Shown in pieces: positions 6,474 through 64,000 of a stretch of DNA of 64,000 nucleotides. Location of the stretch: assembly GCA_963402885.1 (NCBI GenBank), contig OY727099.1:26617001-26681000 (forward strand). The letters are read 5' to 3'. The notes below the pieces were generated by a model. The model was not told the DNA's origin and did not search any database. It was given only the letters and a program-made list of their open reading frames with translations. This stretch comes from Antedon bifida. Lineage: Eukaryota; Echinodermata; Crinoidea; Comatulida; Antedonidae. Each line of letters starts with the position of its first letter. The stretch's first letter is position 1. The translations under genes were made by a program, and so were the position numbers.

Positions 6474-7364
6474 GTTTTGAAGGCCTACATAATGAAGGGT
6501 TTCACCCAACATGCTACCGACGGTTTATTGACAAGACACGAATTGTTAAAGCTGTTAAAAGATGTGAAAATAAGATTTCTAGTTCTAGTAGTGAAAGTAG
6601 TAAAGGTAGTAGTGATGAAGGCTTGTATCCAACAACAACGAAAAAACTACGATCATCTTCGGTACTGGCCTCGTCCATCACCAGCAGGGTGCCTTATCCA
6701 AGGTCGTCATCATCTAGGCCTAGTCGCTCAGTCTTACCAGCTGTTTGCATAATTTGCAACAAGGTTGATTGCTACATAACAGTCTATCATAAACGCAAGA
6801 AGGACAAACTGTGTCAAGCAGAAACTAAAGATGGAGGTATGTGACACCATTGATTGATTGTTTTTAGGTGACCTCGATACATAATAGCATTACAGTATTT
6901 TGCATTACAGTAATAAAAATCCTACAAATATTTCTACTGTTGTGAATTCCCAGTTTGGGATAATACAGTTTTTAGAATAAAATTTGAATAAATAATGATA
7001 AAATGATGACAGAATTGTTATGCATTAAGTAATTCTTATTTTACTTTATTTGTCTTTATTTGTATCTTAAGGACTTTTACGCCAAGCTGCAGAAGCTAAA
7101 ACTGATGAAAATGTGTTGATACACATACGGGACAAGGACTGTGTAGCATTAGAAGTTCGCTACCATCGTTCTTGCTACAGGCATTATACTAGATTTCTGT
7201 CAAGGAGGACAGGTAGTCATAAGTAAGTACTGTACATTATTACCATAGTTGTGCTATACATAGTATTAAATAAACACCCCAAGTGGACAGCAACCTTATG
7301 ATCAAGAGACTGTCTCACTACACGACTATTGCATTTTCAAAGTGTATTATCTATCTTTTTTTAG

Positions 7365-37804: not shown

Positions 37805-38587
37805 GTCGCGCACGCTATATGCGATAAACTTTATGACATAATAGCCATTTTTTTTACTTTGATCAACAATAATTAGACAACAGGAAATGTCTTTGATGCA
37901 TACTATTCATTTAAAACTAATGAGGATGGTAATAAGTGAGAATGTAAGCCAGCATATCGATTTTGTGGCTAAATATGAATGATAAAAATGAAATTTAATA
38001 ACATCAATAATAATAATAATTTTGTCTAATTACAAATTTTATGTGTTTTTTTATGTAACACAGTTTATAGTTATTATAGTTGAGATGGAATAATTTCTAT
38101 CTTGGTCTTCACGGCGAAAATTTTGTGACAACAATTTTACATTATTGTCAAAATCATATACTGTACATTGTTTGCTGTTTTCAGTTAATCCGACACAATA
38201 TGCCATTCATGATACAAAAGGGACAATCATGTGTCAACTATTCAACTATTTTGTTAAAACGGATTCATATATAAAAATCTACGGAAAACGCATAATTTCA
38301 AGACATCCATGTATCACAACAAGTAGGCCTTGCTTCTTCTTAAAATAATGTTGTCCTCTTCTTCTAAAAACTGTTTATGGCTAATTCTACCAAATTTCCT
38401 ATGCTAACATTAATTGTGAGTAGGAGTTATACCAGTTAACAAAGTGTATGTTTAATGTGTATACATAAAATTTTAATTGATAATATAAAACCTTGTTGGT
38501 TCTATCTCTATGAAGAATTGAATTAAAACATTAAATAAATCTAATGAGATGTGGCTATTGTTAGTAGCCTATATTCAGTGTTGAAAC
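37805..38587. other. 3' flank of the minus-strand microexon gene
   Basis: AT-rich, no coding exon seen. Expected to contain the 3' UTR and poly(A) site of the gene whose last coding exon is 38588-38680. Confidence 0.4.
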
Positions 38588-38680
38588 TCAAAGCGTCTTG
38601 ACTAGAAGTGTATTTAAAATGCATCCAGTGATGAAGAATAGACTACCAGAATATGATACAGAACCGCTTGCTGTGGTCAT
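38588..38680 (-). CDS. Microexon gene, last coding exon (hydrophobic C-terminus)
   Basis: Acceptor 'aactgtttcag' then 30 codons and TGA. Small residues (SGSVSYSG) before 18 mostly hydrophobic residues ending in VKTL fit a GPI-anchor signal or a membrane segment. Confidence 0.7.
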   Translation of the reverse strand: MTTASGSVSYSGSLFFITGCILNTLLVKTL

Positions 38681-41600
38681 CTGAAACAGTTAAAAGAAGT
38701 TAATTCGTTGTTGTATATCTAGCATGGATTAATGAATATTCAGTATTGAATGGACGCAACGCAAAGATATACGCACAACGCAGGTAACTTAATGACCAAT
38801 CACAAGTGATGGATTATCCGACGAACTATCGCTTGTGCTGGTGGTAAACTCACTTGTGTTGCGCTTACGTCCTTGCGTTCGTGTTAAGCGTTGTTCCCAC
38901 TCGCGCAACGCAATGCAATGCAGCGACGTATTGACGAAAAGTGCTTTAATTGCATGGGAACCGACGACGCAACGGTGCTGCAAACATCGCAGGTTTGATT
39001 TCACGCAGATGGGGTCAAACACAATTATTGGAAGGGCATTTTCTTACGTTGCGTAGGTTGGTGGGTTGCGTCGCTAGTGGGAACCAAGCTTTTTTGATTG
39101 ATTGATTGAGTATTCTTTATTTTTCACACAAAATTCATAACAATATAAATCAAAAGAAATAAAACCACAAGCAAAGCTTTTGATCTGTGGCACCCTTAAC
39201 TTTAAATATAAATATACAAATAAATTACAAAAATTTTTTATTTAGGATTCGGGACTTCTTGAACTTTCTTGAATGCTATATACGGTATAAGTTCATGCTT
39301 TTTGCCCTTATGCGATCCCCTGCTAAATATATACAAGATCGGTTGAATTTATTGAAAATTTTATAGACATGTTGACGTCGCTTACCTCCGGTTCACTCTA
39401 AAAAAAAACAAATAACACGTTATATAGTATGTTGTTTTCATAAATCGATTCGAAAATAACAGGTTATATAAGTTGAAAAATTAAAGGAGTGAAGATGCAT
39501 TCTATTGTGATATTATTAATTGGTATTTATTTCAACAGCTAACTGTTGTTATCATTGTTAATGTTCTCTACTTATACTGAACCAATCAATGCTGAAAGTG
39601 TCATTTAGTATAAAGATATAAACTAAATGATGGAATATGAATAGCACGTGATTATAATGGCCGGCAACAATAACTGGTGATGAATTGTTGATGTTGATGG
39701 CGATATTTATGATGATTACGCAATGACTGGTTTGAGCTTGATACTAACGCTTTTAAAACGTATAGGTTCTTCTCACGACTTAACCCAACAAGGACGTAAT
39801 TTTACTCCACTAAAGCGTGGTTCCCACTAGAACGCAACGCAACGTAACGCAGCGACGTATCGACGCAAAGTGCTGTATTGCGTAATCACAAGTGGGAACC
39901 GACGATGCAACAGTGCTTCAAACATCGCAGGTTTGATTTCACGTAGGCGGGGGAAAACACAATTATTGGAAGGGCATTTCTTTACGTTGCGTATAGGTTG
40001 CGTTACGTTGTGTCGCTAGTGGGAACCAAGCTTAAACGTTGGGCTTACGTAGTTACGTTACGTCCAAGTGGAATCCAAGCTTTAAAGATAGCACTGTTAA
40101 TAGTCTATAACGATTGCCAGTAGATTTTCTATGAGAGAGAGTAGGCTTAAGTACGAGCAAATACAAAATGATTAGATATACTTACTGTAACGGTAGCTTC
40201 TGGCTCAGCCTGAAAAAATAACGATAATGATACTATTAGGCTTCGGTTCCACGTTATTTACATAAAATCAATACACCAAGTAAATTAATGTAGATGACAG
40301 ACGGGAAGTGTAGATGAAGAAAGTACGGTTATGAATAAATGATACAATTACAAGTACAACTAGAATTTAATTCGTCACTTTGACGAATTATAGGTGATCA
40401 TGTTTATCATTTTATTGACATTTAATTAATTAATTAATTATTGATATTAATTAATTACTGAAATTAATTTCTTTTAAACATGCACGTACGTTAACATACG
40501 ATCGAAAAATGATGATGTATTCCATCCTATTATACGCTTATTGAGTTGTGCCTATTATATGCCATATACAATAATTATGTACAGTATATACAGTATATAT
40601 CTATATACACTGTATATATCTATATACAGTGTAGAATGGGTGAAATTACGGGGCACACATCATGTTCTAATTTTTTGGTATGATGGAATTATCAAAATAA
40701 ACTCGAAGATGACAATTTCAAAGGATAATGAATTGAGCAAATAAATATAAGAATTGGAAGAGAATTTGACACGTAGAAGCGCAAAGCGCGCTCTTTGAAA
40801 TTTGTATAACTTTGACTAAAGAAATTTAAAAACTATTTTTAACTTCAACTGGCCATATGATAACATCACAACATCCGATCAGCTTAATTTTTATATGAAT
40901 TCATATCTACATTTCACCAGCTCTCATAATAAGTTATAAACATCAAGGTCAACTTTAATTCAGAAGAGCTGTAAGGTATTCAAATATACATTGTAGGTGA
41001 AATTACATAACCACCGTTATTCAAATTTTAAGACGTGATGACGTCATCAAAATGAAAATATTGCCAACTCATGAGTAACATACTTGGTTGAGGTAGAATA
41101 TATAGAAAATTAAAAGAAATTTGATCACAAATAAGCGAGTTGCGCTCTGTAGAATAGGGTGGTCTAAGACAAAAGAGTAAAAAACCCTATTTTAAAAGTT
41201 CATGTGGCCAAATGATGACGTCATACCATTTTGTACGTCTAATGTGTATATACATTTATATCTACAACTCATTGGCTACCATAATAAGTTAAAAAAATTG
41301 TGGGTCACCTTTCATTCAGAAGAGTTATATTCATTTTAAAAAGGCCTTATTTTTTACCATTTTTAGCACTTTTGTACAATTAATGTGCGCATTTTGTCAT
41401 TTTCAACGTGATCGTATAGCACTATTTTAAGTCGAAATGGCCTCGAATTTGGTGAATGTACTATGGAAGATGAGTAGAATGCAATTTGTACAAAAAATTG
41501 TTATTTTTTACGCTTTCTATGTACGCACGCGCAAAAACATGTTTTTGCGCAGTAATTTTTTATAACACGCAAATGGCCTAATTCATACTCTAAATTGATC

Positions 41601-44600
41601 AAAACGTAATTTTGAGCTTTTTAAATTTTTAATGCGCGATTTCACGTGCATGACCCTACGTGCGCGTGCGTTTTTATTTGCTAATATTTTTACCCTTGAT
41701 CTGAAGTTTACGTGTAGTGAATTTCATTAATTTGTGATAATTAATTATGGAGATATGATTGATAATTTGATTTCACAAAATGGCGTATAAATGACGTCAC
41801 GGATGAGTGATCACGCTAAAAAGCTTATTAGGACTAAGTTAAAATATTTGAAAGACATTCTGAAATTTTGGTAATCATTGACATTAAACTTTTTGAGATA
41901 TTTGTTACACAAAATCTGTACAGAAAGAAATTGCGAAGAAATATTTTTTTTTATATAAAAACAATTTCTCACTAGAATTTAATTCGTCACTTTGACGAAT
42001 TATAGGTGATCATTTTTATCATTTTACTGAAATTAATTTTTTTTAAACATGCACGTACGTTAACATACGATCGGAAAATGTTGATGTATGCCATCCTATC
42101 ATATGCTTATAGTGCTGAGTTGTGCCTATATGCCATATACAATATGTACAGTATATACTGTATATCTATATACAGTGTAGCATAGGTGAAATTACGGGAC
42201 ACACATGTTCTAATTTTTTGGCATGATGACGTTATCAAACTAAACTTTAAGATGAAAATTTCGAAAGATAATTAATTGAGCAAAAAAATATAAGATTTGC
42301 AAAAAAATTTGGCACGTAGAAGCGCTGTGCGCGCTCTTTGAATTGTGTATAACTTTGACAAAAAATATGAAAAACTACTTTTTCACTTCAACTGGCCATA
42401 TGTTAACGTCACAACATCCGATAGGCTTAATTTTTATATGAATTAATATCTACATTTCATCAGCTTTCATAATAAATTATAATCATCAAGGTAACCTTCA
42501 ATTCTGAAGAGCTGTAAGATATTCAAATTTACTGCGAAGGTGAAATTACACGGCCTACGTTATTCAAGTTTTTACGCGTGATGACGTCATTAAAATGAAG
42601 ATAGTGTCAACTCATGATAAAGATAATTAATTAAGCAAGCACATACTGAAAGTTGTGCGAAATTCGAGCACACATAACCAAGATGCGCTCTGTTGAATGT
42701 GATAATCTACAGAAAAAGATAACAAATCCTAATTTTTAAATTCAAGTGGCCATTTGATGACGTCAAAACATTTTGTACGTAAAATGTGTACATGAATTCA
42801 TATCTACAACTCAATGGCTTCCAGAATAAGTTAAAAAAATCGGGGGTCATCTTGCATTCTGAAGAATTATTTTCATTTTAAAAAAGACCTATTTTTCACT
42901 ATTTTCAGAACTTTTGTAAAATTAATGTGCGCATTTTGTCATTTTTAACGTGCTCGTATAGCGTTATTTTAAGTCGGAACTGACTCAAATTTGGTGAATG
43001 TACTAAGGATGGTGAGTAGAATGAGATTTGTAAAAAAAATTCATATTTTTTACGCTTTTTAAGTATCGCGCGCGCAAAAACGCATTTTTGCGCAGTAATT
43101 TATTGAAACACGCAAATGGCCTAATTCATGCTCTAAATTGATCAAAACTTAATTTTGAGCGTTTTAAATTTTTAACGCGCGATATCACGCGCATGAACCT
43201 ACGTGCGCGTGCGTTTTTATTTGCTAATATTTTTACCCTTGATCTGAAGTTTACGTGTAGTGAATTTCATTAATATGTGATAATGAATTATGGAGATATG
43301 ATTGATAATGTGATTTCGCAAAATGGCGTATAAATGTCGTCACGGATGAGTGATCACGCTGGAAAGCTTATTAGGATTAAGTTATATTATTTGAAAGATA
43401 TTCTGAAATTTTTGTAATCATTGACATTAAACTTTTTGAGATAATTGTTACACAAAATAGTGTACAGAAACAATAAAAAGAAAAAAAAAAAGAAAAATAA
43501 TAATAAAGATTTTATACAATAACAATAGGTGATCATTTTATTCTAAATGATCACCTAACTAGAATTTAATTCGTCACTTTGACGAATTATAGGTGATCAT
43601 TTTTATAAATTTATTGACATTAATATTTTTTAAACATGCACGTGTGTTAACATACGATCGGAAAATGTTGATGTATGCCATCCTATTACAGTATACGCTT
43701 ATAGTGCTTAGTTGTGCCTATTATATGTCATATCACATTATGTACAGTATACTGTATATCTATATACAGTGTAGCATTGGTGAAATTACGGACACACATC
43801 ATGTTCTAAGTTTTTTGCACTGATGACATTATCAAAATAAACTTTTGGATACCAATATCGAAAGATAATGAATTGAGCAATAAAATATAACACTTAGAAG
43901 AAAATTTGGCACGTAGAAGCGCGGTGCGCCCTCTTCAAAATGTGTATAACTTTGACGAAAGAGATGATAAAACTACTTTTTAACTTCAACTGGCCATGTG
44001 GTAACTTCATAACATTCGATAGGCTTAATTTTTATATGCATTCATATCTACATTTCACCAGCTCTCATAATAAGTTATAAACATCAAGGTCAACTTTAAT
44101 TCAGAAGAGCTGTAAGGTATTCAACTATACGTTGTAGGTGAAATTACGTAACCACCGTTATTCAAATTTTAAGATGTGATGATGTCATCGAAATGAAAAT
44201 ATTGGCAACTCATGAGTAACATAATTGGTTGAGGTAGAATATATTAAAAATTTTAAAAAATTCGAGCACAGATAAGCGAGTTACGCTCTGTTGAATATGG
44301 TGGTCTATGACAAAATGGGAAAAAACCCTATTTTAAAAATTCATGTGGCCAAATGATGACGTCATACCATTTTGTACGTCTAATGGGTATATACATTTAT
44401 ATCTACAACTCATTAACTTCTATAATAAGTTAAAAAAAATGGGGGTCATCTTCCATTCTGAAGAGTTATATTCATTTTAAAAACGCCTTATTTGTTACCA
44501 TTTTTAGCACTTTTGTACAATTAATGTGCGCATTTTGTCATTTTTAATGTGCTCGTTTAGCGTTATTTTAAGTCGGAATGGACTCAAATTTAGTGAATGT

Positions 44601-47600
44601 ACTAAGGAAGATGAGTAGAATGCAATTTGTACAAAACAATTTTGTTTTTTACGCTTCCTATGTACGCACGCGCAAAAACGTGTTTTTGCGCAGTAATTTT
44701 TTGAAACACGCAAATGGCCTAATTCATGCTCTAAATTGATCAAAACTTAATTTTGAGCGTTTTAAATTTTTAACGCGCGATTTCACGCGCATGACCCTAC
44801 GTGCGCGTGTGTATTTATTTGCTAATATTTTTACCCTTGACCTGAAGTTTACGTTTAGTGAATTTCATTAATATGTGATGATGAATTATGGAGATATGAT
44901 TGATAATGTGATTTCGCAAAATGGCGTATAAATGACGTCACGGATGAGTGATCACGCTGAAAAGCTTATTATGGCTAAGTTAAAGTATTTAAAAGACATT
45001 GTGAAATTTTGGTAATCATTGGCATTAAACTTTTTGAGATATTTGTTACACAAAAAGTGTACAGAAAGAATAAAAAGAAAAAAAATAAACTAGATCTTAA
45101 ACTCGTCACTTGAGGACGAGTTTGGTTATCCGCCCGCAACAAAACGTATCTTGCGTATTAAAGTACTTCTCAGTTATGACTTTTCCAAAAAAGTAGCCTA
45201 TTCAAAATTAAAACTGCCCTTTAAGTGTAATAACCAAATAATTCCTTTTTTGATTGTTTTCCCGTGATGGGATTCGAACCCGGTACCTGTGATACCAAAG
45301 TCGGTTGCACTACACATCGAGCCATATCAGCACCTGGTGAAGAAAATCCGAAGAAAGAATCCTCGTTCATTCGGTATGTCGTGAACCCCCTCGATGCAAG
45401 TTGATTATTACATATCGAACTTAAATCATAATGTTTACTATGATGAAATCTTCACACATTTTAAACAGTGACATATTATGAAAGTGCATACTTTCAAGTT
45501 TAATATATTAACATGTAAAGAAAAAAGATAAACGTTATGTTTATTGTTTTACTCTTTGAATATGTTTATGTTTGTTTGATGATAAATATTTCAAAAATTA
45601 CATTTAATATGCAAATAATGTAGCCATCAAACACTTTTTAACATTCAAGACTATTATAAATTAGACCTATGATTCATACTCTGCAAGAAAATAAAATAAA
45701 AAAATGGGGTGACCTTGCATTCTGATGAACTGTTTCATTTTTAAAAGTAGACATATTTTGGAACATTTTCACAATTTGTTGACGTTTTCGTGCGCAACCT
45801 GTCATGTTTAACGTGCTCGTAGAACGCCATTTCAAGTTGAAAAGTGAATAAAATAACGTAAAATTGTTAACCGAAGATTTAAAAACACAAATCGTGTAAA
45901 AGAAATGCTCATACGTGTTCCCTGCGCCGTGCGCGCGTAAAAATGTGCGCAACAGTGGCAATTTTTTAAACGCTTAAAATGACCTGAATCGTGCTCTAAT
46001 TTAATCAGAAATTGATTTGGAGCATTTTAAAATTTCAAACGCCATTTACGCGCGCACTTTCTAACGTTACAAATTGCGGTAGCGTTAAAAAAGTTAACTA
46101 TTGATGTGAAGCAAACGTGGCTGAAAATGACGTTAAAAAATATTCGTTTGTTTCGAAGTTATAACCAATTTAAGATTTTCAGAAAATCACGCGTAACTTA
46201 CGCTACGCGGCTCTGACATCGTCAAAAAGCTTGTCTGGACAACTTCAGTAAAATGTCTAAATGCTGAACAAGTTACAACATATTATGTTTACACGTTGAA
46301 GAGAAACAGCGTGCACAAAATAAGAAGAGTAAAATATTTCAAACGCAATTTACGCGAAAACTTTCTAGTCTCCAAAAATTTGTTAAACATTCCAAAAGTT
46401 AGCCATTGATGTGAAGAAAACGTGGCTGAAAATTTCGTTAAAAAATATTTATCGGTTTCGAAGTTATGACCGATTTAAGATTTTCAGAAAATCGCGCGTG
46501 ACTTACGCTACGCGGATCTGACAGCGTCCAAAAGCTTGGCTGAACATCTTCAGTTAAATGTCTAAATGTTGACCAAGTTACAACATGTTATGTTAACACG
46601 TTGAAGAGAAAACGCGTGCACAAAATCTGAGAAAGAAAGAAGAATAATAAAAAAAAAAAGAAACACGTACAATAACAAAGGTTATCCGCTTGTGGCGGAT
46701 AACCAATAAAGATTTTATACAATAACAATAGGTGATCATTTTATTCTAAATGATCACCTAACTAGAATTTAATTCGTCACTTTGACGAATTATAGGTGAT
46801 CATTTTTATCATTTTACTGAAATAAATTTTTTTTAAACATGCACGTACGTTAACATACGATCGGAAAATGTTGATGTATGCCATCCTATTATATGCTTAT
46901 AGTGCTGAGTTGTGCCTATATGCCATATACAATATGTACAGTATATACTGTATATCTATATACAGTGTAGCATAGGTGAAATTACGGGACACGCATGTTC
47001 TAATTTTTTGGCATGATGACGTTATCAAACTAAACTTTAAGATGACAATTTCGAAAGATAATTAATTGAGCAAAAAAATATAAGATTTGGAAAAAAATTT
47101 GGCACGTAGAAGCGCTGTGCGCGCTCTTTGAATTGTGTATAACTTTGACGAAAAATATGAAAAAACTACTTTTTCACTTCAACTGGCCATATGTTAACGT
47201 CACAACATCCGATAGGCTTAATTTTTATATGAATTAATATCTAAATTTCATCAGCTTTCATAATAAATTATAATCATCAAGGTAACCTTCAATTCTGAAG
47301 AGCTGTAAGATATTCAAATTTACTGCGAAGGTGAAATTACACGGCCTACGTTATTCAAGTTTTTACGCGTGATGACGTCATTAAAATGAAGATAGTGTCA
47401 ACTCATGATAAAGATAATTAATTAAGCAAGCACATACTGAAAGTTGTGCGAAATTCGAGCACACATAACCAAGATGCGCTCTGTTGAATGTGATAATCTA
47501 CACAAAAAGATAACAAATCCTAATTTTTAAATTCAAGTGGCCATTTGATGACGTCAAAACATTTTGTACGTAAAATGTGTACATGAATTCATACCTACAA

Positions 47601-50600
47601 CTCAATGGCTTCCAGAATAAGTTAAAAAAATCGGGGGTCATCTTGCATTCTGAAGAATTATTTTCATTTTAAAAAAGACCTATTTTTCACCATTTTCAGA
47701 ACTTTTGTAAAATTAATGTGCGCACTTTGTCATTTTTAACGTGCTCGTATAGCGTTATTTTAAGTCGGAACTGACTCAAATTTGGTGAATGTACTAAGGA
47801 TGGTGAGTAGAATGAGATTTGTAAAAAAAATTCATGTTTTTTACGCTTTTTAAGTATCGCGCGCGCAAAAACGCATTTTTGCGCAGTAATTTTTTGAAAC
47901 ACGCAAATGGCCTAATTCATGCTCTAAATTGATCAAAACTTAATTTTGAGCGTTTTAAATTTTTAACGCGCGATATCACGCGCATGAACCTACGTGCGCG
48001 TGCGTTTTTATTTGCTAATATTTTTACCCTTGATCTGAAGTTTACGTGTAGTGAATTTCATTAATATGTGATAATGAATTATGGAGATATGATTGATAAT
48101 GTGATTTCGCAAAATGGCGTATAAATGTCGTCACGGATGAGTGATCACGCTGGAAAGCTTATTAGGATTAAGTTATATTATTTGAAAGATATTCTGAAAT
48201 TTTTGTAATCATTGACATTAAACTTTTTGAGATAATTGTTACACAAAATAGTGTACAGAAACAATAAAAAGAAAAAAAAAAACTAGATCTTAACTCGTCA
48301 CTTGAGGACGAGTTTGGTTATCCGCCCGCAACAAACGTATCTTGCGCATTCAAGTACTTTTCAATCATGACTTTTCCAAAAAGTAGCCTATTCGAAAATA
48401 AAACTCCCTTTCAGTGTAATAAGCAAATAAATCCTTTTATTTAATTATTTTCCCGTGACGGGATTCGATCCCGGTACCTCTGATACCAAAGTCGGTTGCA
48501 CTACACATCGAGCCATATGAGCACCTGCTGAAGAAAATCCGAAGAACAATTACTCGTTCATTCGGTATGTCGTGAACCCCTCGATGCAAGTTGATTATTA
48601 CCTATCAAACTAAATCATAATTTTTACTATAATGAAATATTCACACATTTTAAACAGTAACATATTATGAAAGTTCATACTTTCAAGTTTTATATATTAA
48701 AATGTGAAGTAAAAAGATAAACGTTATGTTTATTGTTTTGCTCTTTGAAAATGTTAGTGTTTGTTTGATGATCAAAATTTCAAAAATTATATTTAATATG
48801 CACATAATGTAGCCATCAAACACGTTTTAGCATTCAAGACTATAATAAATCAGACCTATGATTCATACACTGCAAGAAAATAAAATAAAAAATGGGGGTA
48901 ACCTTGCATTCTGATGAACTGTATCGTTTTTAAAAGTAGACATATTTTGCAACATTTTCACAATTATTAGACATTTTACGTGCGCAACCAGTCATGTTTA
49001 ACGTGCTCGTGTAACGCCATTTCCAGTTGAATAGTGAATAAAATAACGCAAAATTGTTAACTGAAGTTTGAAAAACACAGTCTAGGCAAAATAAAGGCTC
49101 ATACGCGTTCCCTGCGCCGTGCGCGCGTGAAAATGTGCGCATCTGGTGGGAAATTTTTAAACGCTTAAAATGACCTGAAACGTGCGCTAATTTAATCAGA
49201 AAATGATTTGAAGCATTTTAAAATTTCAAACGCCGTTTACGCGCGCACTTTCTAATGTTACAAAATTCGGTAGCGATAAAACAGTTTACAATTGATGTGA
49301 AGCAACCGTGGCTGAAAATTTCGTTAAAAAATATTTATTTGTTTCAAAGTTATGATCAATTTAAGAATTTCAGAAATTCGCGCGTAACTTACGCTACGTG
49401 GCTCTGACAGCGTCCAAAAGCTTCGCAGTACAACTTCAGATAAATGTCTAAATGTTTAGAAAGTTACAAAATGTTATGTTAACACGTTGCAGAGAAACAG
49501 CGTGCACAAAATCTGAGAAAGAAAGAAGAATAATAAAAAAAAGTAACACTACAATTCCAAGGGCTTATCCGCTTGAGGCGGATAACCAATAATAATAAAG
49601 ATTTTATACAATAACAATAGGTGATCATTTTATTCTAAATGATCACCTAACTAGAATTTAATTCGTCACTTTGACGAATTATAGGTGATCATTTTTATCA
49701 TTTTACTGAAATTAATTTTTTTTAAACATGCACGTACGTTAACATACGATCGGAAAATGTTGATGTATGCCATCCTATTATATGCTTATAGTGCTGAGTT
49801 GTGCCTATATGCCATATACAATATGTACAGTATATACTGTATATCTATATACAGTGTAGCATAGGTGAAATTACGGGACACACATGTTCTAATTTTTTGG
49901 CATGATGACGTTATCAAACTAAACTTTAAGATGACAATTTCGAAAGATAATTAATTGAGCAAAAAAATATAAGATTTGGAAAAAAATTTGGCACGTAGAA
50001 GCGCTGTGCGCGCTCTTTGAATTGTGTATAACTTTGACGAAAAATATGAAAAAACTACTTTTTCACTTCAACTGGCCATATGTTAACGTCACAACATCCG
50101 ATAGGCTTAATTTTTATATGAATTAATATCTACATTTCATCAGCTTTCATAATAAATTATAATCATCAAGGTAACCTTCAATTCTGAAGAGCTGTAAGAT
50201 ATTCAAATTTACTGTGAAGGTGAAATTACACGGCCTACGTTATTCAAGTTTTTACGCGTGATGACGTCATTAAAATGAAGATAGTGTCAACTCATGATAA
50301 AGATAATTAATTAAGCAAGCACATACTGAAAGTTGTGCGAAATTCGAGCACACATAACCAAGATGCGCTCTGTTGAATGTGATAATCTACACAAAAAGAT
50401 AACAAATCCTAATTTTTAAATTCAAGTGGCCATTTGATGACGTCAAAACATTTTGTACGTAAAATGTGTACATGAATTCATATCTACAACTCAATGGCTT
50501 CCAGAATAAGTTAAAAAAATCGGGGGTCATCTTGCATTCTGAAGAATTATTTTCATTTAAAAAAAGACCTATTTTTCACCATTTTCAGAACTTTTGTAAA

Positions 50601-53600
50601 ATTAATGTGCGCATTTTGTCATTTTTAACGTGCTCGTATAGCGTTATTTTAAGTCGGAACTGACTCAAATTTGGTGAATGTACTAAGGATGGTGAGTAGA
50701 ATGAGATTTGTAAAAAAAATTCATGTTTTTTACGCTTTTTAAGTATCGCGCGCGCAAAAACGCATTTTTGCGCAGTAATTTTTTGAAACACGCAAATGGC
50801 CTAATTCATGCTCTAAATTGATCAAAACTTAATTTTGAGCGTTTTAAATTTTTAACGCGCGATATCACGCGCATGAACCTACGTGCGCGTGCGTTTTTAT
50901 TTGCTAATATTTTTACCCTTGATCTGAAGTTTACGTGTAGTGAATTTCATTAATATGTGATAATGAATTATGGAGATATGATTGATAATGTGATTTCGCA
51001 AAATGGCGTATAAATGTCGTCACGGATGAGTGATCACGCTGGAAAGCTTATTAGGATTAAGTTATATTATTTGAAAGATATTCTGAAATTTTTGTAATCA
51101 TTGACATTAAACTTTTTGAGATAATTGTTACACAAAATAGTGTACAGAAACAATAAAAAGAAAAAAAAAAATAATAATAAAGATTTTATACAATAACAAT
51201 AGGTGATCATTTTATTCTAAATGATCACCTAACTAGAATTTAATTCGTCACTTTGACGAATTATAGGTGATCATTTTTATCATTTTACTGAAATTATTTT
51301 TTTTTAAACATGCACGTACGTTAACATACGATCGGAAAATGTTGATGTATGCCATCCTATTATATGCTTATAGTGCTGAGTTGTGCCTATATGCCATATA
51401 CAATATGTACAGTATATACTGTATATCTATATACAGTGTAGCATAGGTGAAATTACGGGACACATGTTCTAATTTTTTGGCATGATGACGTTATCAAACT
51501 AAACTTTAAGATAACAATTTCGAAAGATAATTAATTGAGCAAAAAAATATAAGATTTGGAAAAAAATTTGGCACATAGAAGCGCTGTGCGCGCTCTTTGA
51601 ATTGTGTATAACTTTGACGAAAAATATGAAAAAACTACTTTTTCACTTCAACTGGCCATATGTTAACGTCACAACATCCGATAGGCTTAATTTTTATATG
51701 AATAAATATCTACATTTCATCAGATTTCATAATAAATTATAATCATCAAGGTAACCTTCAATTCTGAAGAGCTGTAAGATATTCAAATTTACTGCGAAGG
51801 TGAAATTACACGGCCTACGTTATTCAAGTTTTTACGCGTGATGACGTCATTAAAATGAAGAGTGTCAACTCATGATAAAGATAATTAATTAAGCAAGCAC
51901 ATACTGAAAGTTGTGCGAAATTCGAGCACACATAACCAAGATGCGCTCTGTTGAATGTGATAATCTACACAAAAAGATAACAAATCCTAATTTTTAAATT
52001 CAAGTGGCCATTTGATGACGTCAAAACATTTTGTACGTAAAATGTGTACATGAATTCATATCCACAACTCAATGGCTTCCAGAATAAGTTAAAAAAATCG
52101 GGGGTCATCTTGCATTCTGAAGAATTATTTTCATTTTAAAAAAAACCTATTTTTCACCATTTTCAGAACTTTTGTAAAATAAATGTGCGCATTTTGTCAT
52201 TTTTAACGTGCTCGTATAGCGTTATTTTAATTCGGAACTGACTCAAATTTGGTGAATGTACTAAGGATGGTGAGTAGAATGAGATTTGTAAAAAAAATTC
52301 ATATTTTTTACGCTTTTTAAGTATCGCGCGCGCAAAAACGCATTTTTGCGCAGTAATTTTTTGAAACACGCAAATGGCCTAATTCATGCTCTAAATTGAT
52401 CAAAACTTCATTTTGAGCGTTTTAAATTTTTAACGCGCGATATCACGCGCATGAACCTACGTGCGCGTGCGTTTTTATTTGCTAATATTTTTACCCTTGA
52501 TCTGAAGTTTACGTGTAGTGAATTTCATTAATATGTGATAATGAATTATGGAGATATGATTGATAATGTGATTTCGTAAAATGGCGTATAAATGTCGTCA
52601 CGGGTGAGTGATCACGCTGGAAAGCTTATTAGGATTAAGTTGTATTATTTGAAAGATATTCTGAAATTTTTGTAATCATTGACATTAAACTTTTTGAGAT
52701 AATTGTTACACAAAATAGTGTACAGAAACAATAAAAAGAAAAAAAATAATAAACTAGAATTTAATTCGTCACTTTGACGAATTATAGGTGATCATTTTTA
52801 TCATTTTACTGAAATTAATTTTTTTAAACATGCACGTACGTTAACATACGATTGGAAAATGTTGATGTATGCCATCCTATTATATGCTTATAGTGCTGAG
52901 TTGTGCCTATATGCCATATACAATATGTACACTATATACAGTGTAGCATAGGTGAAATTACGGGACACACATGTTCTAATTTTTTGGCATGATGACGTTA
53001 TCAAACTAAACTTTAAGATGACAATTTCGAAAGATAATTAATTGAGCAAAAAAATGTAAGATTTGGAAAAAAATTTGGCACGTAGAAGCGCTGTGCGCGC
53101 TCTTTGAATTGTGTATAACTTTGACGAAAAATATGAAAAAACTACTTTTTCACTTCAACTGGCCATATGTTAACGTCACAACATCCGATAGGCTTAATTT
53201 TTATATGAATTAATATCTACATTTCATCAGCTTTCATAATAAATTATAATCATCAAGGTAACCTTCAATTCTGAAGAGCTGTAAGATATTCAAATTTACT
53301 GCGAAGGTGAAATTACACGGCCTACGTTATTCAAGTTTTTACGCGTGATGACGTCATTAAAATGAAGATAGTGTCAACTCATGATAAAGATAATTAATTA
53401 AGCAAGCACATACTGAAAGTTGTGCGAAATTCGAGCACACATAACCAAGATGCGCTCTGTTGAATGTGATAATCTACACAAAAAGATAACAAATCCTAAT
53501 TTTTAAATTCAAGTGGCCATTTGATGACGTCAAAACATTTTGTACGTAAAATGTGTACATGAATTCATATCTACAACTCAATGGCTTCCAGAATAAGTAA

Positions 53601-56600
53601 AAAAAATCGGGGGTCATCTTGCATTCTGAAGAATTATTTTCATTTTAAAAAAGACCTATTTTTCACCATTTTCAGAACTTTTGTAAAATTAATGTGCGCA
53701 TTTTGTCATTTTTAACGTGCTCGTATAGCGTTATTTTAAGTCGGAACTGACTCAAATTTGGTGAATGTACTAAGGATGGTGAGTAGAATGAGATTTGTTA
53801 AAAAAATTCATGTTTTTTACGCTTTTTAAGTATCGCGCGCGCAAAAACGCATTTTTGCGCAGTAATTTTTTGAAACACGCAAATGGCCTAATTCATGCTC
53901 TAAATTGATCAAAACTTAATTTTGAGCGTTTTAAATTTTTAACGCGCGATATCACGCGCATGAACCTACGTGCGCGTGCGTTTTTATTTGCTAATATTTT
54001 TACCCTTGATCTGAAGTTTACGTGTAGTGAATTTCATTAATATGTGATAATGAATTATGGAGATATGATTGATAATGTGATTTCGCAAAATGGCGTATAA
54101 ATGTCGTCACGGATGAGTGATCACGCTGGAAAGCTTATTAGGATTAAGTTATATTATTTGAAAGATATTCTGAAATTTTTGTAATCATTGACATTAAACT
54201 TTTTGAGATAATTGTTACACAAAATAGTGTACAGAAACAATAAAAAGAAAAAAAAAAAGAAAAAAAATAATAAAGATTTTATACAATAACAATAGGTGAT
54301 CATTTAGAATTCTAAATGATCACCTAAAAAAACTAGAATTTAATTCGTCACTTTGACGAATTATAGGTGATCATTTTTATCATTTTACTGAAATTAATTT
54401 TTTTTTAAACATGCACGTACGTTAACATACGATCGGAAAATGTTGATGTATGCCATCCTATTATATGCTTATAGTGCTGAGTTGTGCCTATATGCCATAT
54501 ACAATATGTACAGTATATACTGTATATCTATATACAGTGTAGCATAGGTGAAATTGCGGGACACATGTTCTAATTTTTTGGCATGATGACGTTATCAAAC
54601 TAAACTTTAAGATGACAATTTCGAAAGATAATTAATTGAGCAAAAAAATATAAGATTTGGAAAACAATTTGGCACGTAGAAGCGCTGTGCGCGCTCTTTG
54701 AATTGTGTATAACTTTGACGAAAAATATGAAAAAACTACTTTTTCACTTCAACTGGCCATATGTTAACGTCACAACATCCGATAGGCTTAATTTTTATAT
54801 GAATAAATATCTACATTTCATCAGCTTTCATAATAAATTATAATCATCAAGGTAACCTTCAATTCTGAAGAGCTGTAAGATATTCAAATTTACTGCGAAG
54901 GTGAAATTACACGGCCTACGTTATTCAAGTTTTTACGCATGATGACGTCATTAAAATGAAGATAGTGTCAACTCATGATAAAGATAATTAATTAAGCAAG
55001 CACATACTGAAAGTTGTGCGAAATTCGAGCACACATAACCAAGATGCGCTCTGTTGAATGTGATAATCTACACAAAAAGATAACAAATCCTAATTTTTAA
55101 ATTCAAGTGGCCATTTGATGACGTCAAAACATTTTGTACGTAAAATGTGTACATGAATTCATATCTACAACTCAATGGCTTCCAGAATAAGTTAAAAAAA
55201 TCGGGGGTCATCTTGCATTCTGAAGAATTATTTTCATTTTAAAAAAGACCTATTTTTCACCATTTTCAGAACTTTTGTAAAATAAATGTGCGCATTTTGT
55301 CATTTTTAACGTGCTCGTATAGCGTTATTTTAAGTCGGAACTGACTCAAATTTGGTGAATGTACTAAGGATGGTGAGTAGAATGAGATTTGTAAAAAAAA
55401 TTCATATTTTTTACGCTTTTTAAGTATCGCGCGCGCAAAAACGCATTTTTGCGCAGTAATTTTTTGAAACACGCAAATGGCCTAATTCATGCTCTAAATT
55501 GATCAAAACTTAATTTTGAGCTTTTTAAATTTTTAACGCGCGATATCACGCGCATGAACCTACGTGCGCGTGCGTTTTTATTTGCTAATATTTTTACCCT
55601 TGATCTGAAGTTTACGTGTAGTGAATTTCATTAATATGTGATAATGAATTATGGAGATATGATTGATAATGTGATTTCGCAAAATGGCGTATAAATGTCG
55701 TCACGGATGAGTGATCACGCTGGAAAGCTTATTAGGATTAAGTTGTATTATTTGAAAGATATTCTGAAATTTTTGTAATCATTGACATTAAACTTTTTGA
55801 GATAATTGTTACACAAAATAGTGTACAGAAACAATAAAAAGAAAAAAAATAATAAAAAAAAAAATAATAATAAAGATTTTATACAATAACAATAGGTGAT
55901 CATTTTATTCTAAATGATCACCTAAAAATAATAATAAAGATTTTATACAATAACAATAGGTGATCATTTTATTCTAAATGATCACCTAAATAGAAATAGA
56001 ACTTTAGCATACACCAAAGATATGTTGATGTAAAGTTTGAGGTACACTAAAGGGTCAATCACACCTGTTCCGGCAGGGTTTCGGTCCGGCGAATCGAACA
56101 TTAATGTTTCGTTTTCACGACGCTCCACGCGGCTATGCGCCAATCGATATGCGCGTAGCCGCGTGAAAACGAAACATTGACGTTCGATTGGATTTTCTGG
56201 CGCCGGACCGGAACTGTGCCGGAACAGGTGGTGTGAAAGTGAAAGTTCTGAAAAGAACGTTTGAGTTTCTCGAAGTTGGTATCATCAATATACTTCGATC
56301 GTCCTCATGCAACACAATTTTTTTTTTAATTTTTATTGTATAGGCCTAGTCTCAATTGGGTTGTTTAAATAATTAATTTTTATTCTAAGATGAACCTCAA
56401 TTATAACTACATACGTCCTTCTACAATTTACATAAACTACATAAGATCACGATAACAACATATTGATTGTCGCCATGTGAACGCAAGGATGTACAAAACA
56501 ATTGACCAATCACAAGCTACTTAATCCGTCGCGCTTGTATAGGAAAATTGGTCAACGCGCGCGTAAGAAATATGTTAATTGTTATCATCGTTTATACGCG

Positions 56601-58406
56601 CCAAAAACTTGTTTTGTATTGGTAAAATTACATTGCGTGTACACCATTGCGTTGATATGGGAGATCACTACACAATGAATCAAGATGTATTAGGAAGACA
56701 CGCAATTAATACTTAAATATTGTGTAACGACCTCGCGTTTCACACGAATATTGTACATGTGTGTAAATGACTGTAACTTATTAAATTATTACATACCTAA
56801 CTAGTAGTAGCATTAGTAACATTACAATACATTAAACATATGATAAAGTTTGGTTTGTGGTATAACATCATGTGTTCCCAAAAGGAAATACATGGTTGAG
56901 AATGTCTCGTGACGTGTTGTTGTTGTGCTATATTTGAACCGCCGTCATGGCCTAAAATGTCGAGACCGTATTTCCTTTTGGAAAAACGTCGTACCGCAAA
57001 CATTACTTTACTGGTAGAATAGAATTCATAACCATAGTACTTCATCCGTTAGAATTGCATGAGTACGTTTGTGCTGATTTGGGTATTAAGCTCTGTCTAC
57101 ACTATCAAACTAGTTTGACAAAGAAAGTGTACCAAAATATGGCGGTGAATGCCTAAATATGGTAGCGCTATTTGACATCATCATGTCTATATAATTATGG
57201 GCACATCACATTTTTTGTCACATAAAGTTTGATAGTGTAGACAAGGCTTAACGACATGCAAAAACGACTATCATCACACTCCAAGCAATGCACTAATGCA
57301 CGCCATGCCTATACTTACATTACCCTCAGGCTCTGCCTACAAAATTAGTGCGGATTGAAAAAAAAAATAACGCGCTATAAGTTTTATAACAATATTATAT
57401 TCTTTTCATATACATTCCTACTAGAAAGATTATTATTATTATGAGAAAGAGTATTATAATTTGCCCAACGCAATTCTTGGGATAACTGATCAAGTTGTAC
57501 GCGCGAACATAATACCTTGCGCGTATTATGTCATCATCATTGCGTTTCTCGCTGTGGGAACCAACCTCATGAGCATGGAATCGTCACATACAAATAGAAT
57601 AATCATAAAATAGATTATAATCGATTATATGTAATAAGAATCGTGATGGTATTTATTATTATCATGTTCGTCAACGCGCGCGTAAGAAATATGTTAATAT
57701 TATCATCGTTTGAACGCGCCAAAAACTTGTTTTGTTTTGCAATGAGAGGGCCTTCACCAACTGGCACTAACTACAGATTATGATGTGTATATATGTTGAG
57801 AATAAATAGCATTTACTTACAGTTGGAGTCGCTTCTGGTTCCGGCTAAAATTCCATAAAAAAAATTTAGAATATGAATAATAATAAATAATAATTTCTAT
57901 TACAAAAAACAATAGTAATAGTAATGGAATATCAATTTTGACTATTTTCTAAAATGCCGATAGTAATATTTGTTATCATTAATTTTTGTTATAATGTTGA
58001 ATTACATAGATTGCGCGGGGGTCACGCGTTTCTCTAATTCGGCATTCCATATCCATTTAATGATTATAAATTAGGAATGAATTTAAATGTGTATGAAATA
58101 AAATATATTTGAATATATATGGATTCGCTCCCGCCTAAATCAAAAAGGAAAGCAGGTACAACATAATAAGTATACATTATTATAATTATTAATTTTTACA
58201 TGAATCATAATATTTTTTATATAACAATGTATTCACTTTAAAATAGATTATTGCAAAAGTGTTTTCATCATAAAGACAAATCCTCAAAAAAAAACAATGG
58301 TAACATTGCAATATATGCCTACCTGCACTGTTGTCTGTGCATTGACTACGAATATAGCAAAAACTGCTAACATAAATGATAGGATGAGGACATTGCGCAT
58401 GTACAT
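38588..58406 (-). CDS. Microexon gene: 84-residue secreted or GPI-anchored Glu/Pro/Thr-rich peptide precursor
   Basis: Reconstructed from splice signals. Coding exons (minus): 58406-58323, 57844-57821, 57336-57319, 40209-40186, 39397-39386, 38680-38588. All are phase 0 with strong acceptors (T-rich, cag/tag) and donors (four gtaag, one gtagg). Exon 1 encodes a signal peptide (MYMRN, about 15 hydrophobic residues, VNA|QTT). The middle exons encode PEPEATPT, AEPEGN, AEPEATVT and SEPE. The last encodes 'MTTASGSVSYSG' and then a hydrophobic tail 'SLFFITGCILNTLLVKTL', like a GPI-attachment signal. The mature peptide would be about 40 residues, acidic and Thr/Ser-rich, probably O-glycosylated. No homologue recognised. 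The plan resembles CD52 precursors (tiny GPI glycopeptide) and schistosome micro-exon genes; both are analogies. Any middle exon could be skipped without a frameshift. Confidence 0.72.
38755..38880. mobile_element. MITE-like element with 'gaccaatcacaag' core
   Basis: 'gacgcaacgcaaagatatacg' at the left is inverted against 'cgcttacgtccttgcgttcg' at the right, around 'atgaccaatcacaagtgatgg' in overlapping parts. Lies in the last intron of the microexon gene. Confidence 0.55.
38885..39091. mobile_element. MITE 'GCTTGGTTCCCACTAG' family, copy A
   Basis: The inverted ends are imperfect at the left ('gcgttgttcccact') and good at the right ('ctagtgggaaccaagc'). The core 'gcaaacatcgcaggtttgat' is shared with copies at 39813 and 61854 (reverse). 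Confidence 0.75.
39386..39397 (-). CDS. 12-nt microexon (SEPE)
   Basis: Flanked by 'ttgttttttttag' and 'gtaagc'. Phase 0, encoding Ser-Glu-Pro-Glu, the motif found in every other middle exon. Confidence 0.65.
39813..40032. mobile_element. MITE 'GCTTGGTTCCCACTAG' family, copy B
   Basis: Ends 'aagcgtggttcccactag' and 'ctagtgggaaccaagctt' are inverted. Core 'gcttcaaacatcgcaggttt'. The right flank reads gcTTAAacg, and copies A and C have TTAA at their left, which suggests TTAA target duplications (piggyBac or Kolobok type). Confidence 0.8.
40186..40209 (-). CDS. 24-nt microexon (AEPEATVT)
   Basis: Acceptor 'cgttattttttcag', donor 'gtaagtatatc', phase 0. It lies just outside the left edge of the satellite array. 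Confidence 0.7.
40359..41970 (+). repeat. Array unit U1 (older U variant)
   Basis: Clearly more diverged than U4-U8. Contains extra 'taattaattaattaatta' after the head. Shares with U3 the variant 'catgagtaacatacttggttg'. No tail module. Confidence 0.9.
41971..43557 (+). repeat. Array unit U2 with tail hairpin
   Basis: Close to U4-U8. Ends with the tail module and its 'aggtgatcatttta/taaatgatcacct' hairpin. Confidence 0.9.
43558..45088 (+). repeat. Array unit U3 (older U variant)
   Basis: Shares diagnostic variants with U1. Ends in the A-rich run without a tail and is followed directly by X1. Confidence 0.9.
45089..46760 (+). repeat. Array unit X1 with internal duplication
   Basis: Starts with the CTCGTC/GACGAG hairpin and 'ggttatccgcccgc'. 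Its 3' half is a diverged homologue of the U 3' half. About 46043-46329 is repeated at 46331-46619, which makes it 304 bp longer than X2. Ends with a hairpin (GGTTATCCGC/GCGGATAACC) and then a U-type tail hairpin. Confidence 0.9.
45261..45336 (-). mobile_element. tRNA-like segment in X1
   Basis: On the minus strand, A-box-like 'TGGCTCGATGTGTAGTG' and a perfect B-box core 'GGTTCGAATCC' with its flanking GGG/CCC stem. The anticodon arm does not pair cleanly, so a tRNA relic or SINE head rather than a functional tRNA. Confidence 0.6.
46761..48281 (+). repeat. Array unit U4
   Basis: Nearly identical to U5-U8. No tail; followed directly by X2. Confidence 0.9.
48282..49649 (+). repeat. Array unit X2
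   Basis: Second X copy, 1368 bp, single version of the part that is doubled in X1. Ends with 'cttatccgcttgaggcggat' and then the U-type tail hairpin. Confidence 0.9.
48452..48527 (-). mobile_element. tRNA-like segment in X2
   Basis: Same position and orientation as in X1; B-box core here is 'GGATCGAATCC'. A-box-like part retained. Confidence 0.55.
49650..51231 (+). repeat. Array unit U5 with tail hairpin
   Basis: Typical U unit. Two diverged internal repeats start 'aggtgaaattac' at 49863 and 50218 (about 355 bp each). Confidence 0.9.
51232..52752 (+). repeat. Array unit U6
   Basis: Typical U unit ending in 'aaaaaataataa' without tail hairpin. Confidence 0.9.
52753..54331 (+). repeat. Array unit U7 with variant tail hairpin
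   Basis: Shortened TATA-like palindrome near 52925. The tail hairpin loop is changed to 'gaattc', giving a longer perfect palindrome (aggtgatcatttagaattc and inverse). Confidence 0.9.
54332..55989 (+). repeat. Array unit U8 with doubled tail
   Basis: Last unit. The tail module with hairpin is present twice in tandem (about 55866-55925 and 55929-55989), and the array ends there. Confidence 0.9.
56055..56236. mobile_element. Foldback MITE with 'cacacctgttccggc' ends
   Basis: Left arm (cctgttccggcagggtttcg, aacattaatgtttcg) and right arm (cgaaacattgacgttcg, gccggaacaggtgg) are imperfect inverted copies over almost the full length. CG-rich compared with its surroundings. Confidence 0.8.
56478..56575. 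mobile_element. MITE-like element with 'gaccaatcacaag' core, diverged
   Basis: Contains 'gcaaggatgtacaaaacaat' and 'ttgaccaatcacaagctact'; the right half is poorly preserved. 'gtcaacgcgcgcgtaag' recurs near 57670. Confidence 0.4.
57087..57250. mobile_element. MITE, 'GTCTACACTATCAAACT' family
   Basis: Nearly intact: 'tgtctacactatcaaactag' at the left, 'agtttgatagtgtagacaag' at the right. In the large intron just left of the AEPEGN microexon. Confidence 0.8.
57319..57336 (-). CDS. 18-nt microexon (AEPEGN)
   Basis: Acceptor 'ctaattttgtag', donor 'gtaagtatag', phase 0. Confidence 0.65.
57821..57844 (-). CDS. 24-nt microexon (PEPEATPT)
   Basis: Acceptor 'tatggaattttag', donor 'gtaagtaaatg', phase 0. 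Paralogous in sequence to the AEPEATVT exon 17.6 kb away. Confidence 0.7.
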
Positions 58407-58463
58407 GGTTGCCTTCTTCACGAGAGCTGCTACGGAATGTTGTATGTAGATGACGTAAAGAGA
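58323..58463 (-). CDS. Microexon gene, exon with start codon and signal peptide
   Basis: Acceptor 'tctattttcag' at the right edge; ATG at 58406-58404; 28 codons to a 'gtaggc' donor. Bases 58463-58407 are 5' UTR (in-frame open but without an earlier ATG). Confidence 0.72.
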
Positions 58464-58762
58464 CTGAAAATAGAAACATTATATCATCGAATAAATCTCA
58501 TTATACGTACGAATTCACCATATTTGGTGGAGTCAAAAGAAAATGCATTTGAAGGAGATGAGATAATCGCTCGTTTTAAACGCCAGTTATATAATAATAT
58601 ATATAATATAATTGTCTATTTCCCCCACTCGTCATTATTCATCTTTCGCTTCGATTAATATTTTAATCATAATCATAATAATTTTCAATTTTAAAACGGG
58701 TTATTTTTTCCTAATAATAATGATGACATTTCATAAAAATCTGATTCCCATTCCGTAAGCTG

Positions 58763-58926
58763 CATTCACACTGAGCCCGGATTCGGTCCGGTGACTAGAG
58801 ACCACCGGGCTGAATTACATTTTGTTAATCACACACAGACGTTTTAATATAAAAAAAATCGGAATAATGCGGTGTGAACGGGACCGGAGTACGGGTTGCA
58901 TTCATCCAGGTTCAGTGTGAACGTAC
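58763..58926. mobile_element. MITE with 'cgttcacactgaacc' ends
   Basis: Left 'cattcacactgagcccggat' and right 'ccaggttcagtgtgaacg' are inverted. Internal 'ttcggtccgg' and 'gggaccggag' resemble the 56.1-kb foldback. Confidence 0.6.
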
Positions 58927-59334
58927 CTTTAAAAAGTACTGTACCTTTTTTCTGGTCCCTGGACAAAATCCAGATACGTAAGAAGGTGTGATGCGGGTAT
59001 TTTACTAGATTGTCGACGCGATACTATACGTAGGCGTAATTTATTACATACAAGGCGTGGCATGATGTAGGTTGTTAAACGATTACATCAAGGCCTTAAA
59101 TATAATATAACAAATAATAAAATATTGTGTTTCTTTGAGATTTCAAGCGACAAGTTCTATCAATTCTTTTATACTGTCATATATTCCTATAAAATAAGCC
59201 CATCTCGTTTTGGGCATGAGACTAATGTTCAACATACTGATACATAATTGAATAAAGGAATACGTAAGTTTGTATCAATAGGCCTATTAATCAAGCGCTA
59301 ATTATGTATATATTAATTAAGCTTTGAAACTTAC

Positions 59335-59395
59335 CGACTTGTATTCGCTCCGAGTGATGCCTGCACAATGATTGACTTGACTTATGGAGGATACT
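59335..59395 (-). other. Probable 5' non-coding exon of the microexon gene
   Basis: Ends at donor 'aagtcg|gtaagtttc' (59335/59334). Contains no ATG on the minus strand, so the ATG at 58406 would be the first in the mRNA. The right end is estimated from the TATA box. Confidence 0.5.
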
Positions 59396-62679: not shown

Positions 62680-64000
62680 ACAACACTGTTCTCGACACTG
62701 CCCACACAATACAATTGACACTGACTCATACAACGTAGATTGATACACACCGATACAAGACTGTAGATTGACACTGTCTCACACAACACTGTAGATTGAC
62801 ACTGACCAATACAACACTGTAGATTGACACTGACCCACACAACACTGTAGATTGACACTGACTCACACAACACTGTAGATTGACACTGTCTCATACAACA
62901 CTGTAGATTGACACTGTCTCATACAACACTGTAGATTGACACTGTCTCATACAACACTGTCTCATACAACACTGTAGATTGACACTGACTCACACAACAC
63001 TTTAGATTGACACTGACCCACACAACACTGTAGATTGATACTGACCCATACAACACTGTAGATTGACACTGTCTCATACAACACTGTAGATTGACACTGT
63101 CTCATACAACACTGCAGATTGACACTGACCCACACAACACTGTAGATTGACACTGTCTTATACAACACTGTATAATTGACACTGTCTAACACAACACTGT
63201 AGATTGACACTGTCTCATACAACACTGTAGAATGACACTGACCCACACAACATTGTAGATTGACACACACCGATACAACACTGTAGATTGACACTGACCT
63301 ATACAACACTGTAGATTGACACTGACTGATACAACACTGTAGATTGACACTGACTCATACAACACTGTATATTGACACTGTCTCAAACAGCACTGTAGAT
63401 TAATACACACCGATACAACACTGTAGATTGACACTGACTCATACAACACTGTATATTGATACTGTCTCAAACAGCACTGTAGATTGATACACACCGATAC
63501 AACACTGTAGATTGACACTGACTCATACAACACTGTATATTGACACTGTCTCAAACAGCACTGTAGATTGATACACACCGATACAACACTGTATATTGAC
63601 ACTGTTTCATACAACACTGTATATTGACACTGACCCACACAACACTGTAGATTAACACACACCGATACAACACTGTAGATTGAAACACACCGATACAACA
63701 CTGTAGATTGAAACTGCTCATACAACACTGTATATTGACACTGACCCACACAACACTGTAGATTGACACACACCGATACAACACTGTAGATTGACACACA
63801 CCGATACAACACTGTAGATTGAAACACATCGATACAACACTGTAGATTGACACACACCGATATAACACTGTAGATTGAAACACATCGATACAACACTGTA
63901 GATTGACACACACCGATACAACACTGTAGATTGAAACACATCGATACAACACTGTAGATTGACACTGACTCATACAACACTATAGACTGACCCACACCGA
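62680..64000. repeat. 28-bp minisatellite, about 47 units, continues past the window
   Basis: Unit 'acaacactgtagattgacac' plus eight variable bases (tgactcat, acaccgat, tgtctcat and others). 63346-63597 shows three copies of an 84-bp higher-order unit made of three variants. It lies in the last intron of the UBX gene. Confidence 0.95.

Follow-up and report, generated by a model that had tools for sequence, protein, structure and literature searches.

A predicted gene of short exons on the minus strand of the window (the whole stretch of Antedon bifida DNA analysed, 64,000 nt, positions 26,617,001-26,681,000 of its contig) encodes an 84-residue precursor in which four x-E-P-E units, each on its own exon of 12–24 nt, lie between a predicted signal peptide and a hydrophobic tail. 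Judged from sequence, this appears to be a single-copy crinoid gene whose product is rather probably a tiny, GPI-anchored, O-glycosylated acidic glycopeptide of the cell surface. Confidence differs between the parts of this reading: exons 2 to 6 almost certainly belong to a real gene, the last exon is very probably correctly placed, and GPI anchoring is probable.

A chain of six minus-strand coding exons, all in phase 0 and together specifying 84 residues, had been proposed in a first-pass annotation. The exons (e2–e7; 84, 24, 18, 24, 12 and 93 coding nt, the last including the stop codon) were located and joined by script, and the chain was confirmed, with consensus splice signals. Every coding length is a multiple of three, and start, frame and stop are intact in the joined product. 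Exon e2 (58323..58463) combines 5'UTR, an ATG at 58406 with A at position -3, and the signal peptide MYMRNVLILSFMLAVFAIFVVNA followed by QTTVQ; it is bordered by the acceptor tttctattttcag and the donor CAG/gtaggc. The four micro-exons follow: e3 (57821..57844, 24 nt, PEPEATPT, between attttag and gtaagt), e4 (57319..57336, 18 nt, AEPEGN, between attttgtag and gtaagt), e5 (40186..40209, 24 nt, AEPEATVT, between attttttcag and gtaagt) and e6 (39386..39397, 12 nt, SEPE, between tttttttttag and gtaagc). Exon e7 (38588..38680 including TGA) is entered through the acceptor ttttaactgtttcag and encodes MTTASGSVSYSGSLFFITGCILNTLLVKTL, a Ser/Gly spacer with a hydrophobic tail that is a probable GPI signal. 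Acceptors throughout the chain are T-rich and end in YAG, and the introns, in gene order from e1, measure 871, 478, 484, 17109, 788 and 705 nt. If the e4 donor is read through (57274-57336, minus strand), the frame yields AEPEGNVSIGMACISALLGV and then stops, which might provide an alternative hydrophobic end.

The ends of the transcript are less sharply defined. A putative non-coding 5'UTR exon, e1 (approximately 59335..59395, minus strand; ...TACAAGTCG/gtaagt, with the donor GT after 59335), is a plausible though weak candidate whose start is a guess; no ATG occurs from 59395 to the donor, and an AT-rich TATATC lies about 26 bases upstream of 59395. On the 3' side, ATTAAA at 38451..38456 (minus strand), about 130 nt past the stop, is a weak candidate poly(A) signal, this motif being common in AT-rich DNA, and a second ATTAAA is found at 38477. 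The weakest element of the gene model is e7.

The precursor begins with MYMRN, a 16-residue hydrophobic core and VNA, giving a 14-residue hydrophobic mean of 3.02 and a V-N-A/Q cleavage context under a hand rule; QTTVQ, the units of e3 to e6 in order, and MTTASGSVSYSGSLFFITGCILNTLLVKTL follow. The 38 residues from Gln24 to Ser61 contain eight Glu, eight Thr, six Pro, five Ala and three Ser, with no Lys or Arg. Acidity in this part comes from Glu only, spaced by Pro and Ala, with no Asp, and the precursor contains neither an N-x-S/T sequon nor a dibasic processing site. At the C-terminus, small omega-type residues and the Ser/Gly spacer are followed by about 14 hydrophobic residues running to near the end; this tail is moderately hydrophobic (best 14-residue mean 2.23) and holds an Asn and a Lys. 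The signal-peptide and GPI calls both rest on hand-made rules. A rule for signal-peptide first exons matched once in 264 kb on both strands, at e2, whereas a bare hydrophobic-tail rule was satisfied 88 times in the same 264 kb, such that e7 is not special by hydrophobicity alone. Under a stricter GPI-like last-exon rule, e7 was one of 3 terminal frames that passed out of 1060 in 264 kb.

These counts bear on the strongest competing reading, in which the same gene ends in a short transmembrane or stop-transfer segment, or in some other last exon, and the product is secreted or membrane-spanning rather than GPI-anchored. The abundance of tail-like frames, the position of Lys82 close to the tail end and the short hydrophobic stretch that also closes the e4 read-through all speak for it, but about 14 residues is little for a membrane-spanning run, the tail comes after small omega-type residues and a Ser/Gly spacer, and e7 passes the stricter rule. 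We regard this alternative as unlikely, while giving it appreciable weight. Less probable still is a reading that keeps the gene and departs from the GPI-anchored glycopeptide in function only: a Glu-rich peptide that binds mineral or Ca2+ in the skeleton, or that carries glycosaminoglycan through Ser-Gly. Crinoids have calcite skeletons, and a stretch of eight Glu and no basic residue just past the signal peptide, followed by two Ser-Gly dipeptides, would suit such a role; against it, the acidic residues number only eight, are spaced by Pro and Ala and include no Asp, and no Pfam family scored above its cut-off. A signal peptide followed by repeated short units also has the general look of a peptide precursor, yet a small secreted regulatory peptide is very improbable given that dibasic sites are lacking and that hormone precursors would not be expected to end in a hydrophobic tail. 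These alternatives overlap in part with the GPI-anchored glycopeptide reading.

The possibility that the exons are fortuitous was addressed with a strict micro-exon grammar, consisting of YAG with at least nine pyrimidines in 15, 12–36 nt open in phase 0, and a GTAAG donor. All scan rules and thresholds were written after the gene had been seen, and the resulting figures serve as guides and not as unbiased tests. The 264 kb scanned, on both strands, contained 17 candidates; the four that contain EPE are exactly e3–e6, collinear and on one strand, whereas the other 13 lack it, one of them (TSFLTMSEPRS, 46234) lying inside the repeat array of the large intron. Across all six frames of 264 kb (527,996 codon positions), EPE occurs 12 times, e3–e6 included, and because it is so rare the number of EPE micro-exons expected by chance in 264 kb is, by arithmetic, far below one. 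Markov-3 simulated sequence (10 Mb) yielded 267 candidates, none with EPE, and a relaxed scan of the minus strand from 38.5 to 59.5 kb (phase-0 exons of 9–60 nt with at least 40% E/D/P/T) returned the same four only. The earlier claim that four xEPE segments would very rarely arise by chance is thus borne out, and in our judgement the clustering is far beyond any plausible adjustment for post hoc rules. That splice-like motifs fell into line by chance, or that the gene is dead, is accordingly very improbable: such a reading could draw on the choice of thresholds after the data were seen, but four EPE micro-exons stand against an expectation far below one, all phases agree with start, frame and stop intact, and directly 5' of the micro-exons is the one signal-peptide exon that 264 kb yielded. 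Taken together, the exon chain, the chance scans, the signal-peptide rule and the GPI-like rule strongly support, at the level of sequence, the small secreted or GPI-anchored xEPE peptide that was first proposed.

Comparison of the micro-exons with one another is consistent with constraint at the protein level. Compared in pairs, the EPE cores differ in 0 of 18 cases at first codon positions, 0 of 18 at second and 13 of 18 at third, a third-position divergence that is largely ascertained in that the exons were recognised by spelling EPE. Over all 24 nt, e3 and e5 differ at 2, 1 and 6 of 8 sites at the three codon positions. The intron flanks of the micro-exons are mutually unrelated (24-38% identity over 80 nt on each side, ungapped), and the codon-position pattern with unrelated flanks is what would be expected if exons had duplicated long ago and protein-level selection had since maintained them. 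Splicing of 12-nt exons is difficult, and the motif associated with SRRM4-type splicing is TGC; none of the four micro-exons has such a TGC within the preceding 20 nt. A TGCATG 59 nt downstream of e4 was considered as a regulated-splicing motif and rejected as within chance, TGCATG having 38 copies in the window (both strands).

Searches of the genome (315.6 Mb in 27 contigs) uncovered no paralogue family when the 84-residue product was used as a six-frame whole-genome query; of four rows returned, two were the gene's own e7 and e2 and two were at chance level (E 3.5 and 6.7). At the DNA level, 201 bases around e3, 221 around e5 and 201 around e6 each matched the genome at their own locus alone, although the search skips very common words and a lone match does not prove rarity. 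The DNA test of single copy thus covers e3, e5 and e6, and e2 and e7 are single-copy as protein. Because flanks of about 200 bases match only themselves, the three exons tested do not belong to an ordinary repeat, and a transposon origin for them was rejected.

In a collection of 5.8 billion proteins that includes those of Antedon and Anneissia, no significant homologue was found either with the single sequence (one candidate, no match) or with an alignment of six forms, namely the complete chain plus five hypothetical forms with exons skipped; the search tool is weak on short diverged peptides. With the same reservation, this outcome is consistent with the first-pass view of the gene as undescribed, which it apparently is. 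No echinoderm gene of this kind, and no paper on this genome, was present among the literature matches listed, which were a part of all matches. Among 8000 scored candidates, which had been pre-picked for shared words, the six-form alignment gave a single look-alike, P0067, a protein of 97 aa encoded on a 1490-base ENA contig; the match is not significant (E 0.81, 30% identity). P0067 has a signal-peptide-like start, EPTAEPEPEPTAEPEMTSEPEMTTP and a hydrophobic tail, and shares SEPEMTT with the crinoid product; we treat the likeness as convergence or chance.

The 17,109-nt intron between e4 and e5 (40210..57318, minus strand) is mostly filler. About 15.6 kb of it (about 40363-56013) consists of Helitron-like elements on the minus strand, whose 3' ends show a hairpin with a 10-bp stem followed by AATT-CTAG/T; a hairpin and CTAG/T at the 3' end are the Helitron signature. 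Eight such ends were located, at 54336, 52757, 51236, 49654, 46765, 43562, 41975 and 40363, and a second kind of element end occurs at 48286 and 45093. All ten lie in one orientation and are mostly about 1.5-1.6 kb apart across 40363-56013. A 601-base piece of the filler drew 2264 first-look candidates from the whole genome; the 40 copies scored were all listed at 100% identity over the full length, so that the burst appears very recent. Removal of the filler would leave an intron of about 1.5 kb; apparently, recent Helitron-like elements have swollen it some twelve-fold and left the flanking micro-exons intact. Short inverted-repeat elements, MITE-like by eye, are also present at 38.8-39.1, 39.8-40.1, 57.07-57.25 and 61.9-62.1 kb; they are of two kinds (GGTTCCCACTAGCGAC... 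and GTCTACACTATCAAACT...) and lie in introns of the micro-exon gene and nearby.

On one side, the gene is neighboured by a CDC5L homologue (minus strand) and a GatA-type amidase (plus strand), which we take to be QRSL1; on the other, the sequence outside the window includes a frame with an immunoglobulin domain (L013:5741-7498). The window gave no hit in Rfam or tRNA scans. Elsewhere in the window, positions 1181-23730 (plus strand) hold tandem long single frames, four of 711-721 codons together with shorter pieces near 3.5 and 20 kb. The four were read as TRIM-NHL genes, the first by domain scan, the second by protein search and the other two by eye; the second has its best relatives, TRIM2/TRIM71-like, in Antedon mediterranea and Anneissia japonica, at no more than 68% identity, which marks the DNA as that of a crinoid, apparently one other than A. 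mediterranea. An inverted repeat at 5544-6460 (376-nt arms, 97% complementary, 155 nt apart) is bordered on both outer sides by a 10-bp tandem repeat (TACCAAGACC); the 781-codon frame just after it (7270-9615) matched tesmin/TSO1 CXC marginally, at 24 bits against 23.5. A 28-bp tandem array of about 45 copies occupies 62714-63991, and its minus strand contains long open frames.

For the GPI-anchored glycopeptide, the following course of events may be envisaged. The precursor would enter the ER, where signal peptidase would cut after VNA-23 and GPI transamidase would remove the tail near Ser59-Ser65 (the hand rule picks Ser63), leaving about 36-42 residues tethered, with eight Glu and no Lys or Arg. 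The many Thr and Ser near Pro and Ala would suit mucin-type O-glycosylation. The Pro/Glu units may keep the chain extended and strongly negative, and the tethered peptide would therefore form a short charged brush, possibly an anti-adhesive or protease-resistant glycocalyx; such a surface-coat role is conceivable, and we put it forward with some reserve. Because each unit is its own symmetric cassette, as are all the coding exons, in-frame skipping is possible and could alter length, charge and glycan number without a break in the frame. That skipping is in fact regulated is a still more tentative suggestion.

In plan the gene resembles the CD52 and procyclin coats and the schistosome micro-exon genes (MEGs), and it lacks defining features of each. 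Procyclins are Glu-Pro-rich, GPI-anchored proteins with EP repeats that make up the surface coat of insect-stage trypanosomes. At E up to 1, a Pfam scan of the product turned up four families; CD52 was not among them, and each scored below its cut-off. The best was procyclin (PF05887), below threshold at E 7e-4 and 20 bits against a cut-off of 100. The two share Glu-Pro richness and, probably, a GPI anchor, a resemblance that is compositional and far below the family cut-off. Here, however, the xEPE units are on separate exons of an animal gene, whereas procyclin has one tandem EP run and belongs to a kinetoplastid.

CD52 and CD24 are made as tiny precursors in which a signal peptide is followed by a short mature peptide rich in Ser and Thr, a Ser/Gly spacer and a hydrophobic GPI signal; the CD52 gene has two exons. 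By hand rules the crinoid product would fit this plan, with a very short predicted mature part between a putative signal peptide and a GPI-like signal. The mature CD52 peptide is reported to be 12 residues long and heavily glycosylated (PMC11982460) and to have an N-glycosylation site at Asn3 (PMC6719568). The crinoid precursor has no counterpart to the Asn3 site, and its predicted mature part is about three times longer, with acidic xEPE repeats and a micro-exon architecture. The parallel with CD52 first drawn stands for the overall plan and does not extend to the N-glycan site.

Schistosome MEGs are described as opening with a signal-peptide exon, after which come short exons, for the most part multiples of three in length, with longer introns between them; they have 10-20 very short exons of 6-81 bp, and their secreted products, varied by skipping of central exons, carry a FL..F X6 W motif after the signal peptide (PMC10526429). 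The parallel holds for architecture, namely a signal-peptide exon by the hand rule, short multiple-of-three exons, long introns and a predicted secreted product. It fails for exon number, with four micro-exons of 12-24 nt and coding ends of 84 and 93 nt here against 10-20 short exons, and for the post-signal motif, which is absent from a product that contains no Trp. The gene described here further differs in its one repeated xEPE unit and GPI-like tail, and in being a single copy in a crinoid rather than one of 35 genes in a flatworm. That a MEG-type gene evolved outside flatworms, with interchangeable 12-24-nt xEPE cassettes, tissue-regulated skipping and up to 16 in-frame variants of a GPI-anchored coat, strikes us as somewhat unlikely in this full form. 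Homology searches have difficulty with genes built of 12-24-nt exons, and gene finders easily pass over them, so a convincing case found by splice grammar alone suggests that micro-exon genes for tiny secreted or anchored peptides may have been overlooked in echinoderms. If transcribed, this one would be an independent deuterostome instance of the MEG design and could show directly whether symmetric micro-exon cassettes serve to adjust how long, how charged and how glycosylated a cell-surface brush is.
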